Positions 36,880-41,704 of a DNA stretch of 60,232 bases are shown piece after piece. Each line of letters starts with the position of its first letter. The first letter of the stretch is position 1. The stretch is from Opitutia bacterium Tous-C4FEB (GTDB lineage: Bacteria > Verrucomicrobiota > Verrucomicrobiia > Opitutales > Opitutaceae). The stretch lies in assembly GCA_002304445.1 (NCBI GenBank), contig NEVA01000019.1:1-60232 (forward strand), written 5' to 3'. The position numbers and the translations under genes are program-made. The notes beneath the pieces are model-generated. The model searched no databases. It saw only the letters and a program-made list of their open reading frames with translations, and had not been told where the DNA came from.

Positions 36880-37431
36880 TCAGATCAACCCGAGCTTCAT
36901 TTTGCCTTCTTCGCTGATCATGGACTGGTTCCATGCGGGCTCCCAAGTGATGCGGACATCGGCGGCAGTTACACCGGGGACGAGAAGGATTTTGGTTTTG
37001 GCGTCTTCGGCGATGGCGGGCCCCATCCCGCAGCCGGGGGCGGTCAGGGTCATGGCCACGTTGACGCGGTAGGCGGGCGGAGTGACGTCGGGAGTTTGCC
37101 CGACATCCATCGAGTAAACGAGGCCGAGATCCACGATGTTGACGGGGATTTCCGGGTCGTAGACCCGTTTCAATTGTTCCCAGATCGCAGCGGGGTCGGG
37201 AGCGCCGCCGTCGAGGGTCGCGGCTTGGACGGAGTGGTCGACGGCTTTCTCCCCGATGGCATCGGCGTCTTTGCCGTCGAGACGAAAGAGGCCGAAATCG
37301 GTCTGCACGGTGTAGCTACCACCGAGGGTTTGGTGGATGAAGAGCTTGGTGCCGGCCGCGAGAGTGTGTTTATCGCCACTGGGAATTTGGGTGGCGACGA
37401 TCTCGCGGGAAAGGGTGCGGTCGGTGTTCAT
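36880..37431 (-). CDS. sufT: Fe-S cluster assembly protein SufT (DUF59/MIP18-like)
   Basis: Protein of 183 aa with a C-terminal DUF59/PaaD-like domain (LKRVYDPEIPVNIVDLGLVY, then MTLTAPGCGMGP with the conserved Cys) and an N-terminal extension, as in the putative maturation factor SufT. It is thought to help deliver Fe-S clusters to target enzymes. It is the last gene of the regulator-sufC-sufB-sufD-sufT operon, 49 bp after sufD. Confidence 0.92.
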   Translation of the reverse strand: MNTDRTLSREIVATQIPSGDKHTLAAGTKLFIHQTLGGSYTVQTDFGLFRLDGKDADAIGEKAVDHSVQAATLDGGAPDPAAIWEQLKRVYDPEIPVNIVDLGLVYSMDVGQTPDVTPPAYRVNVAMTLTAPGCGMGPAIAEDAKTKILLVPGVTAADVRITWEPAWNQSMISEEGKMKLGLI

Positions 37432-37480: not shown

Positions 37481-38800
37481 TTACTTTTTGAATTTGGTTT
37501 GGATCAGGAGTCGGAGGGCCTCATGGAGATCGTGGTCGATCAGTCGCGCGAGAACCTCCTCAAAGAATCCGAAGGTGAGAAGTTCGTCGGCCTGTTCTTT
37601 GGCGATACCGCGGGACTGCAGATAGAACTCTTGCTCGGGGTCGATGCGCGATGAGGTCGCACCGTGGGTGCAGCGGACATCGTTGGCTTGAATTTCGAGG
37701 CCGGGAAGCGAGCAGGCTTCGGCTTCGTCGCTCAGCATGAGGTTGCGGTTTGATTGGTAGGCGTCGGTTTTTTGGGCGTCGGGATCGACGACGATGAGGC
37801 CGGAGAAAATGGTCTTAGCCGTGCCGCGAAGCGCGTTCTTGTAAAGCAGGTCGGACTTGGTGTTCGGGGCCTCGTGAATTTGGAGCGTGCGCTGGTCGAA
37901 CTCCTGGCCGGCCTCGGCGACGGTGAGGGCGAGCATCTCCGAGAACGCACCGGGGGCGGCGAGTCGGGAAAGGGATTCGTGTCGGGCTTGACGGGCACCG
38001 AGGTGGAGATTGAGCGACTGCACGCGAGCGTCGCGTCGGACCACCGTCGAGTTCGACTGGATGGAGAGGGCGCGGTGGCTCCAGTCCTGTTTGCCGATGT
38101 AGGTGAGCTGAGCGCCGTGTCCGGCGAAGAGATCGTTGGCGCCGGCGGCGAATTGGGCGGACGTGTCGGCGTCGGAGCCGAAGTATTCGATCACGGTGGC
38201 CCGGGCGTTTTCAGCGAGAACCACAAGGGTGTGGGGGAAAACGGCAGAGGTGGCTCCGATCGCGTGGGAGAAAACGCCGATGGGCAGAGCAACCTGCACA
38301 TCGCGGGGGACATAAATGAAAGCGCCATCGGCGAGGAAAGCTTCGTGGAGCGCGGCGAACTTCGGCGAGCCGAGTTTTGGCGGTTGGGCCAGCAAGTGTT
38401 CGCGCACGAGGGCATCGTGGTGCACGAGGGCGTTTTGCAGGGTATCGACGATCACGCCGCGGGCGACGAGATCGCTTGAGAGGAGTTCGCGGGAAACGAG
38501 CCGCCCGTTGGCAAAGACCAGCTGCGCAGCTTTTGGGATGCCGATAGGCAGGAGAGGGACGGAAGCGGCGGCGTCGAGCGTGAAGCCGTCAAGCGTGAGG
38601 GTGCCGATGCTGCTGAAGCGCCACATCTCGTCGGTGCGGGTCGGCATCGGGAGCGAGGCGAAGCGGGCGTAAGCGGCGCGCTTGCGCGCGACCCACCAAC
38701 CGGGGAGGGAGGGCGGGAGCGACGCGAGGTGAGCGGCGAAAACGTCGGGGGTAAATGAGCCGACAAGGGCGGCGGGAGCGGAGAGCGTGGGTGCGGACAT
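37481..38800 (-). CDS. sufD: Fe-S cluster assembly scaffold protein SufD
   Basis: SufD (439 aa) pairs with SufB and SufC to build [4Fe-4S] clusters. The ATG at 38800 fits the family. N-terminal PTRTDEMWRFSSIGTL matches the SufD 'EDWRYT'-like region, and the C-terminal SufB/D fold includes RNLMLSDEAEACSLPGLEI and the conserved CTHGATSSRIDPEQEFYLQS (catalytic His). Gaps are 94 bp to sufB upstream and 49 bp to sufT downstream. The sufB-sufD gap contains short repeats. Confidence 0.94.
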   Translation of the reverse strand: MSAPTLSAPAALVGSFTPDVFAAHLASLPPSLPGWWVARKRAAYARFASLPMPTRTDEMWRFSSIGTLTLDGFTLDAAASVPLLPIGIPKAAQLVFANGRLVSRELLSSDLVARGVIVDTLQNALVHHDALVREHLLAQPPKLGSPKFAALHEAFLADGAFIYVPRDVQVALPIGVFSHAIGATSAVFPHTLVVLAENARATVIEYFGSDADTSAQFAAGANDLFAGHGAQLTYIGKQDWSHRALSIQSNSTVVRRDARVQSLNLHLGARQARHESLSRLAAPGAFSEMLALTVAEAGQEFDQRTLQIHEAPNTKSDLLYKNALRGTAKTIFSGLIVVDPDAQKTDAYQSNRNLMLSDEAEACSLPGLEIQANDVRCTHGATSSRIDPEQEFYLQSRGIAKEQADELLTFGFFEEVLARLIDHDLHEALRLLIQTKFKK

Positions 38801-38804
38801 GACA

Positions 38805-38890
38805 GGATTTCGATTTTGGATTCTCAAAATTCGATTGGACCGGATTTTCGCTGGATCGAAAATTGCCGGTCTGGAATCGAAAATTCGGCG
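38805..38890. repeat. short repeats in the sufB-sufD spacer
   Basis: Within the operon spacer the words ATCGAAAATT (38854 and 38876 areas) recur as direct repeats with flanking CCGG/CGG, and related inverted words TTCGATTTT and AAAATTCGATTGG lie on the sufD side. AT-rich 'TTTTCGATT' text of this kind is a recurring intergenic repeat in some genomes of this phylum. It could fold in the mRNA between sufB and sufD. Confidence 0.4.
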
Positions 38891-38894
38891 GACT

Positions 38895-40358
<1,464 letters not shown>

Positions 40359-40386
40359 GGACGGAAGGCTTAAAAAGGTGCGGTGC

Positions 40387-41148
40387 TTAGGCGGCGGAGG
40401 CCGCAAGTTCTTTTTTGATCCAATCGTAGCCCTTGGCTTCGAGTTCCAAGGCGAGCGATTTATCGCCGGATTTCACGATGCGGCCGTCATACATGACGTG
40501 GACGTGGTCGGGGACGATGTAGTCGAGGAGACGTTGGTAGTGGGTGATGAGGAGAACGCCGAGGTTGGGGCCGCGCATCGTGTTTACGCCATCAGCGACG
40601 ATGCGGAGGGCGTCGATATCGAGACCGGAATCGGTCTCGTCCATCAGCGCGAATTTTGGTTCAAGCATGGCCATTTGCAGAATCTCGCAGCGTTTCTTTT
40701 CGCCGCCGGAGAAGCCTTCGTTGACCGAGCGGGAGGTGAACTTCCGGTCGATCTTGAGCAGGTCCATTTTTGAGTAGAGGCGTTTGTAGTAAGCCGAGGC
40801 GTCGAGTTCTTCTCCCTCGGCCATCCGGGCTTGCTGCGCGGCGCGGAGGAAATTGGCGATGGAGACGCCAGGAATTTCGCTCGGGTATTGGAAGGCTAGA
40901 AAGATGCCGGCGCGGGCGCGTTCGTCGGCTTCCTGGCCGAGGATTGAGGCACCGTCGAGGAGAACCTCGCCGGATGTGATGGTGTAGTCGGGATGCCCGG
41001 CGATGGCTTTGGAGAGCGTGGACTTGCCGGTACCGTTGGGCCCCATGATGGCGTGAACTTCGCCACTGTGAATCGTGAGGGTCAGGCCCTTAACGATTGC
41101 TTTTTCACCGATGGAAACATGGAGGTCTTTGATTTCGAGTTGGCTCAT
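40387..41148 (-). CDS. sufC: Fe-S cluster assembly ATPase SufC
   Basis: ABC-type ATPase (253 aa) that powers the SufBCD scaffold. Walker A is [12 protein letters not shown], the Q-loop [12 protein letters not shown], the signature [14 protein letters not shown], Walker [13 protein letters not shown] (the SufC-typical DETDSGLD) and the switch His in [11 protein letters not shown]. The gene follows the Fur-family regulator by 49 bp. No Shine-Dalgarno sequence precedes the ATG. Confidence 0.97.
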
Positions 41149-41197: not shown

Positions 41198-41638
41198 TCA
41201 ATCTAAGGAGGTCTTGGCCTTCCCGCGAAAAGTGATCTCAACGGCGTTGGCGTCGAAGCCGGCCGGAAGTTCGGCTTTCAGCTTGGCAAACAGAACGGGA
41301 GGCAGGTCGATGTCGTGGGTTTGGCCGGTTGCTTCGTCGTGGAAATGGGCGTGCGGACGCAAATTCGGGCAATATCTGGTTGGACCCCGTTCAAAATTGA
41401 CCGCTCGAACGAGATCGCACTGCACGAGGGTTTCGAGGCAGTTGTAGACGGTCGCGAGCGAGATACCGGGGAGTTCGGGCTTTACGCGGGCAAAGACCTC
41501 ATCGGCGGTGGGGTGGTCGCGCTTAGTGAGCAGAACGTCATAAACCAGTTCACGTTGCGGAGTGGTGCGCAGACCGCTGTCCGCGAGTTTTTGCGCGAGC
41601 CCGGTGGGGTGGAGGGCGTTGTTGGCGTGGGTAGGCAT
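41198..41638 (-). CDS. Fur-family regulator lacking the CxxC zinc motif (Irr/PerR-like)
   Basis: Metalloregulator of 146 aa from the ATG at 41638. The winged helix is clear: [14 protein letters not shown] and the recognition helix [14 protein letters not shown]. The dimer domain has [18 protein letters not shown]. Where Fur, PerR and Zur have CxxC, this protein has DEATG, as in Irr and some PerR-like proteins; His96, His98 and His100 may bind iron or haem. It heads the sufCBDT operon and has two palindromic boxes just upstream, so it probably represses its own operon in response to iron, haem or peroxide. Which of these is sensed cannot be told. Confidence 0.9.
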
Positions 41639-41660
41639 TTTTTGAGGAAGGCACAACAAA

Positions 41661-41704
41661 TTGGAATGATTCTAAGGTGCAAACAATAATTAGAACTATT
41701 CTAG
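41661..41704 (-). promoter_or_regulatory. two tandem Fur/PerR/Irr-like operator boxes
   Basis: TTGGAATGATTCTAA (41661-41675) and TTAGAACTATTCTAG (41690-41704) are each a near-perfect palindrome of the form TTAGAA-N3-TTCTAA with one mismatch. This is the Irr box pattern and also resembles the PerR box. Their centres are 29 bp apart. They lie 23-66 bp upstream of the regulator start, where a repressor would block the promoter of the regulator-suf operon. Confidence 0.65.

Follow-up and report, generated by a model that had tools for sequence, protein, structure and literature searches.

Comparison across the class points to a Fur-superfamily protein that heads the suf operon of Opitutia bacterium Tous-C4FEB and probably controls that operon, its own gene included. 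The conserved boxes upstream of the gene, a TTG fixed between them and the placement of 70 of 89 exact box sites at suf argue for a near-dedicated, self-controlling suf regulator, and this comparative evidence, which is strong, supports the control of its own operon that the original prediction had proposed for the protein. In the reading that we favour, and to which we give somewhat better than an even chance, the protein would be a dedicated, self-repressing suf repressor of the Fur superfamily whose metal-loaded form occupies two boxes, with Fe(II) as the likeliest co-repressor. The DNA analysed, referred to below as the window, is a stretch of 60,232 nucleotides on contig NEVA01000019.1.

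The regulator and its operon

The regulator gene (P0001) lies at 41198..41638 on the minus strand and encodes 146 amino acids from an ATG at 41638; the list of open reading frames also offers a TTG start at 41659 (153 amino acids), and of the two the ATG is the better fit to the orthologues. Its stop codon is 49 bp from the start of sufC, which encodes the Fe-S assembly ATPase (40387..41148, minus strand; TIGR01978, 353.9 bits with a cut-off of 212.8). Further along the same strand are sufB (38895..40406 for the ORF as listed, 38898-40361 for the part scanned; TIGR01980, 630.4 bits, cut-off 346.4), sufD (37481..38827 as listed, 37484-38797 scanned; TIGR01981, 242.8 bits, cut-off 222) and a sufT-like gene (36880..37431; TIGR03406, 196.1 bits, just under the cut-off of 202.6), giving the order regulator-sufC-sufB-sufD-sufT. 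One terminator-like stem occurs, in the last part of the regulator gene, and shuffled sequence gives as many.

FUR (PF01475) is the sole Pfam family that P0001 matches, with 78.2 bits against a cut-off of 23.1, and this places the protein outside the Rrf2 family of IscR and RisR, with its own fold and three-Cys site. The AlphaFold2 model (mean pLDDT 87.1) retrieves Fur, PerRA and PerR structures at Foldseek ranks 1-3, as a Fur fold predicts, and among solved structures its sequence is nearest to Leptospira PerRA 5nl9 (phmmer E 2.8e-16) and B. subtilis PerR 2fe3. The DNA helix carries Y65-N66-C67, and DEATG at residues 101-105 replaces the first CxxC of a protein that has no CxxC, just as the original prediction had described. 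Two more Fur-family genes are present in the window's genome.

The original prediction also leaned towards Irr, and here the evidence goes the other way. P0001 scores 62.6 with the NCBIfam IrrA model (cut-off 150) and 56.9 with the Irr model (cut-off 170), and we rejected Irr membership on these scores together with the CxxC-bearing members found within the suf-linked group. Both CxxC motifs persist in 10 of the 24 members from other families of the class and in 1 of 61 members of the order (L072); only the first Cys persists in 13 of the 61, and the relatives away from suf all retain both Cys of the first motif. Because CxxC-bearing members sit inside the suf-linked clade, the loss would be separate from that of Irr, and the tree is compatible with two or more losses inside the group. 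In the tree, the suf-linked members group together, except for one very long non-suf branch (L082) among them, with support of 82/90 from a bootstrap that had not settled, so that deep support is rough and many deep forks stay open; the tree included no Irr sequence, and the exclusion of Irr is based on the model scores, the lineage and the CxxC pattern.

Conservation of the gene order

Our set from the same order or nearer comprised 76 genomes, 65 of them with a regulator match at E 1e-10 or better. Every match of those genomes was fetched (67 stretches), yielding 63 orthologues with 48-100% identity. The regulator-sufC order and the place at the head of the suf operon, both predicted from the window, are borne out: sufC directly follows the regulator in 62 of the 63 orthologues, across a gap of 20-260 bp, and the 63rd (L083) ends at a contig edge. 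A sufB match occurs further downstream in 60 of the 62 loci, the others being L067 and L016, the latter in a stretch cut short. The four weak matches (L079-L082, 32-37% identity) have no suf alongside. One orthologue (L078, from G061) is broken by in-frame stops, and sufC and sufB still adjoin it.

A second set of loci, the best 80 contig matches listed, comes entirely from close relatives (Opitutaceae and other Verrucomicrobia) and partly overlaps the 76 genomes; 78 of these matches have room for a neighbour, and sufC lies within 400 bp in 77 of the 78. The exception, L202, is on a contig filed under Polymorphobacter, with an 89% identical regulator and no sufC behind it, and this probably reflects an error of binning or assembly. 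In the wider class, loci were fetched from 24 of the 45 genomes with a match; sufC is next in 23 of these 24 loci from other families, and L146 has sufB first. No suf genes adjoin the 13 more distant matches from the phylum or the 3 low-scoring matches from the order in the stretches fetched.

Alongside the window's own genome, we checked for SufB in 15 genomes picked for the absence of an orthologue. SufB is present in 11 of them and absent in G004, G046, G047 and G062; ten of the 11 have no regulator match in the stretch around sufB, and the remaining one (G038) is cut by the contig. These ten loci indicate that suf can exist without the regulator, and they count against the repressor reading. 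In G070, a genome without the regulator, a small gene that looks DtxR-like by eye (L181, 2-316, minus strand) points away from sufC.

Operator boxes and probable promoter

Two 15-bp near-palindromes, the candidate operators, lie upstream of the regulator, 29 bp apart from centre to centre. The proximal box is at 41661..41675 (centre 41668) and reads TTGGAATGATTCTAA on the plus strand and TTAGAATCATTCCAA on the gene strand; the distal box is at 41690..41704 (centre 41697) and reads TTAGAACTATTCTAG and CTAGAATAGTTCTAA, respectively. Each is one mismatch from TTAGAANNNTTCTAA. With up to two mismatches allowed, the chance expectation over the whole window is a mean of 0.57 matches, and the count of boxes alone is weak evidence because 10 of 100 shuffles also hold two or more; it is position and conservation that give the box evidence its strength.

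Conservation was scored in 132 loci of the order that remained after identical coding DNA had been dropped (63 from the order genome set and 69 from the named loci), a box being counted if it matched at least 10 of 12 positions and lay no more than 250 bp before the conserved part of the gene. At least one box is present in 128 of the 132 loci and two boxes in 100, with a spacing of exactly 29 bp found 93 times; at 12 of 12 positions, at least one box is present in 104 loci and two in 64. These are counts of loci related by descent and do not represent independent events. Over the same loci, the backward pattern gave 3 matches and coding sequence 1, and 3.9 were expected from shuffled sequence. 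The tandem operators of the original prediction are thus conserved as a pair, and a general lack of boxes at orthologous loci, which would have spoken against it, is not what the order displays, although the 4 loci of the 132 without a box at this threshold do weigh against the repressor reading.

A TTG stands seven bases before the proximal box in 92 of the 92 loci with a 29-bp pair, compared with a mean of 0.8 loci per other offset. In the window it begins the candidate -35 TTGCAC (41677..41682, minus strand) between the boxes, followed after 16 bp by a weak candidate -10, TTTGTT (41655..41660, minus strand), which agrees with TATAAT at three of six positions and recurs at this place in 31 of the 92 loci. 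The operon's -35 is probably this TTG; in our reading, the proximal box fills the 16-bp spacer after it and the distal box lies just upstream. A consensus scan for sigma-70 promoters gives none on the minus strand at the boxes, so that only the conservation of the TTG points to a -35; the silent scan and the weak -10 both count against the repressor reading. Repression and self-control are argued for by the arrangement of the locus, because the boxes enclose the probable -35 and the regulator heads the operon, and a repressor is what the protein most likely is.

Elsewhere in the class, 15 of 24 loci from other families have one box, typically TTAGAATNATTCTTG, which ends in TTG in 10 of the 15 box-bearing loci; this terminal TTG may be the -35 there. 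The other 9 of the 24 loci have no box at the threshold, some of them carrying a shorter GAATTGTTCTTG, and they too stand against the repressor reading. Among relatives away from suf, 2 of 20 have a box, with a shuffled expectation of 0.5.

Sites elsewhere in the genomes

A search for the same box before other iron genes was one of the checks that the original prediction had named. In the window's genome, TTNGAANNATTCTAR occurs only at the two places upstream of suf; allowing two mismatches gives 13 places, compared with 51 in the backward control, and allowing one mismatch to TTRGAANNNTTCYAA gives 7 places, the two suf sites included, compared with 8 in the control. As nothing beyond the two suf sites exceeds the control, we rejected a wider iron regulon in this genome.

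The exact TTRGAAYNATTCYAA was counted in the 76 genomes in two sets. It occurs at 23 places in the first set of 16 genomes, where 15 genomes have a match and 4 places are away from suf, and at 66 places in the other 60, where 45 genomes have a match and 15 places are away from suf. Read backwards, the pattern matched once in the 16 genomes, and in the 60 it gave three listed counts from two genomes. With a looser pattern, all of 15 class-level genomes have a match.

The neighbours of the off-suf sites are mostly unrelated, and two recur, a sigma gene and uvrA. Full-score boxes of the suf type lie upstream of an RpoS/RpoD-like sigma-70 gene in G017, G301, G432 and G068, from several families (L092, 1501-1515; L305, 2479-2493; L307, 2500-2514; L382, 2536-2550). 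Of 30 orthologues of this gene that were tested, 3 have a full-score box and a fourth (G138) an 11-of-12 site, and the orthologue in the window's genome has a 9-of-12 site only; the sigma gene was accordingly rejected as a conserved second target and would at best be an occasional one. The uvrA gene has TTGGAATCATTCCAA about 20 bp upstream in four genomes, all from a single genus of the class (L372, L373, L374, L375). In G112, a gene for a heavy-metal P-type ATPase has a perfect TTAGAATTATTCTAA 8 bp upstream (L381, site 2535). A gene in G066 that carries CxxCH motifs has a perfect box 315 bp upstream (L311, site 2528); this gene has no NCBIfam match at 1e-30 and probably encodes a multihaem cytochrome.

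The predicted metal site and the candidate signals

Residues were tallied in 85 suf-linked members, namely 61 orthologues of the order and 24 other members of the class, and in 20 relatives away from suf; the broken L078 and the truncated L083 were excluded. A metal site made of H42, C90, H96, H98 and D109 is predicted from the alignment to PerR 2fe3 and PerRA 5nl9. H42, H96, H98 and D109 align with the PerR ligands His37, His91, His93 and Asp104, so that four of five ligands are kept. The PerR site of H37, D85, H91, H93 and D104 is incomplete in P0001, with Cys90 at the position of Asp85. This Cys is present in 59 of 61 members of the order and in all 24 of the other families (83 of 85 suf-linked), compared with none of the 20 relatives away from suf, which have Asp (18), Glu (1) or Met (1). 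The two suf-linked exceptions are L074, with Glu and no good box, and L076, with Asp and two good boxes, and the acidic residues in both suggest that the position is a metal ligand.

Cys67 follows the same division (80 of 85 suf-linked, 1 of 20 away from suf), while Cys74 is found in 54 of 61 members of the order, 4 of 24 of the other families and 2 of 20 relatives away from suf. Asn66 and Asp109 are invariant in the 61 and in the 24, Asp109 thus being present in 85 of 85. The excerpted account in PMC8638967 assigns a DNA-helix Asn and an Asp at this position to the PerR/Irr type, and gives Glu at the 103/104 position for Fur, Zur, Mur and Nur; P0001 carries the PerR/Irr-type residue in both cases. 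Fe(II), bound in a His/Cys/Asp site, is the likeliest co-repressor, and zinc, an Fe-S cluster and haem are rival candidates for the signal.

The kept ligands could also be taken to indicate a strict peroxide sensor of the PerR kind, in which Fe-catalysed oxidation of His42 or His96 would induce suf under H2O2, and the two nearest solved structures by sequence, PerRA 5nl9 and PerR 2fe3, agree with this. We consider such a sensor very unlikely: Asp85, which is among the five ligands of PerR, is replaced, the NCBIfam PerR models score far under their cut-offs (79.6 with 180, 75.7 with 250, 64.1 with 200 and 58.2 with 200), and none of the off-suf sites whose neighbours were read has a peroxide-defence gene.

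Zinc comes into consideration through the C-x5-H-x-H spacing of P0001, which equals that of C79, H85 and H87 in ScZur. A Zur-like protein would use Cys90 with His96 and His98 as a zinc site and tune suf to zinc, for example against zinc poisoning of Fe-S assembly. Zur sensory sites do contain a Cys needed for sensing (ScZur C79 and EcZur C88; PMC6103462, in excerpt), and Cys90, present in 83 of 85 members, would be its counterpart, an equivalence given by the PerR alignment only. This reading is unlikely, however, given that Asp109 occupies, in 85 of 85 members, the position where Zur has Glu (PMC8638967, in excerpt), that the Zur model picks up just 3 of 36 members (best E 9e-06), with P0001 absent from the matches listed, that the target is suf and not zinc uptake, and that P0001 has no CxxC.

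The division of Cys67 and Cys90 between suf-linked members and other relatives (80/85 and 83/85 versus 1/20 and 0/20) speaks for a Fur-fold Fe-S sensor, in which Cys67, Cys74 and Cys90 would contribute to a cluster site and suf would be repressed by the holo form, following the logic of IscR and SufR. Such a sensor would suit suf control, and the available part of PMC10318462 reports that E. coli Fur binds a [2Fe-2S] cluster, but the site given there, C93/C96/C133, is absent from P0001. Cys74, common in the order, is kept in only 4 of 24 members of the other families, and two members have Asp or Glu for Cys90, one of them (L076) with two good boxes. We therefore regard cluster sensing as quite unlikely.

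The suf box also resembles TTAGAA-N3-TTCTAA, the Irr-type site named in the original prediction. A haem-sensing, Irr-like protein would read haem through Cys90-Pro91 as a haem regulatory motif, its apo form binding ICE-like boxes; the Cys-Pro dipeptide is found in most members (Pro91 in 58 of 61 and 16 of 24), and the HxH of the Irr haem site is present as H96 and H98, a feature shared with PerR and so not specific. The low Irr scores and the separate loss of the CxxC both oppose this reading, as do the replacement of Pro91 by A, S or Q in 11 of the 85 suf-linked members and the description of Irr as alpha-proteobacterial in the excerpted PMC7762939, and it is the most improbable of those considered.

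A possible, if doubtful, evolutionary account is that a PerR-like ancestor moved to the head of suf, exchanged Asp85 for Cys90 and gained Cys67, and that the protein now reads Fe-S supply, either as a cluster or as Fe(II) in the Cys-containing site. The move and the exchange would then belong to the ancestor of the class, and the Fur superfamily would be doing what IscR, RisR and SufR do in other families.

Proposed mechanism and comparison with known systems

In the Fe(II)-dependent repression that we favour, a metal-loaded dimer of the regulator would bind the two 15-bp boxes (TTRGAAYNATTCYAA) that enclose the promoter -35, its sensing site being of the PerR type (H42, H96, H98, D109) with Cys90 for PerR Asp85. 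When the co-repressor is plentiful, the bound dimer would block RNA polymerase; iron shortage or an oxidised metal site would release it, and regulator-sufC-sufB-sufD-sufT would be transcribed. Gene order, boxes, fixed spacing, fixed TTG and the specificity of Cys90 come from comparison, whereas binding, repression, metal and signal are what we infer.

The nearest tested parallel is PerR of Streptococcus mutans, which binds the sufCDSUB promoter and represses it in an Fe2+-dependent manner (PMC11631912, in excerpt). Both are Fur-family proteins with a box near the promoter and control of suf, and Fe2+, the co-repressor there, is the one proposed here. According to the same source, PerR is the only Fur-family regulator of S. 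mutans and has other targets, whereas the regulator described here opens the suf operon, has nearly all its sites at suf, lacks the CxxC and carries Cys for Asp85. Leptospira PerRA and PerRB (5nl9; PMC8638967, in excerpt) share the absence of the CxxC, with DEKTG where P0001 has DEATG, the Asn of the helix and the PerR/Irr-type Asp; the alignment shows Asp and not Cys at the Asp85 position of PerRA, and no suf link was found in the excerpted text of that paper. Irr of alpha-proteobacteria, in the available part of PMC7762939, likewise lacks the CxxC and has an HxH and a similar box, but it belongs to another lineage, lost its CxxC separately and commands a global regulon, in contrast to a near-single target and a protein below the Irr cut-offs. 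With Zur (PMC6103462, in excerpt) the likeness is the Cys in the sensory site, and the differences are Asp109 instead of Glu, the missing CxxC and the suf target.

Our search, confined to openly available journal papers, turned up none that describes a suf regulator of the Fur family in Verrucomicrobiota. That Fur-family proteins can control suf is established; these papers yielded no case in which such a protein heads the operon, is nearly dedicated to it and carries the Asp-to-Cys change. Throughout the class, a Fur-superfamily protein stands at the head of suf, and its ligand change is found in suf-linked members and in none of the 20 others, which offers a clean system for how a Fur-type site changes its signal, since the substitution, the promoter and natural revertants (the Asp and Glu members) are all at hand. 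It also cautions that single motifs are insufficient for naming such proteins PerR, Irr or Zur.

SufR belongs to another winged-helix family, not to Fur. Operon-heading regulators of Fe-S assembly are best known from SufR and from the Rrf2-type RisR and IscR (PMC9973013, in excerpt); RisR of Myxococcus xanthus, IscR and SufR resemble the present regulator in heading an operon and in self-linked control of Fe-S assembly, and IscR and RisR differ from it in being Rrf2 and not Fur proteins. The window's genome encodes two Rrf2 proteins, both outside the window, and one of them (L387, 1495-2091), which has a Cys-rich stretch, adjoins an apparent transport binding protein, away from suf.
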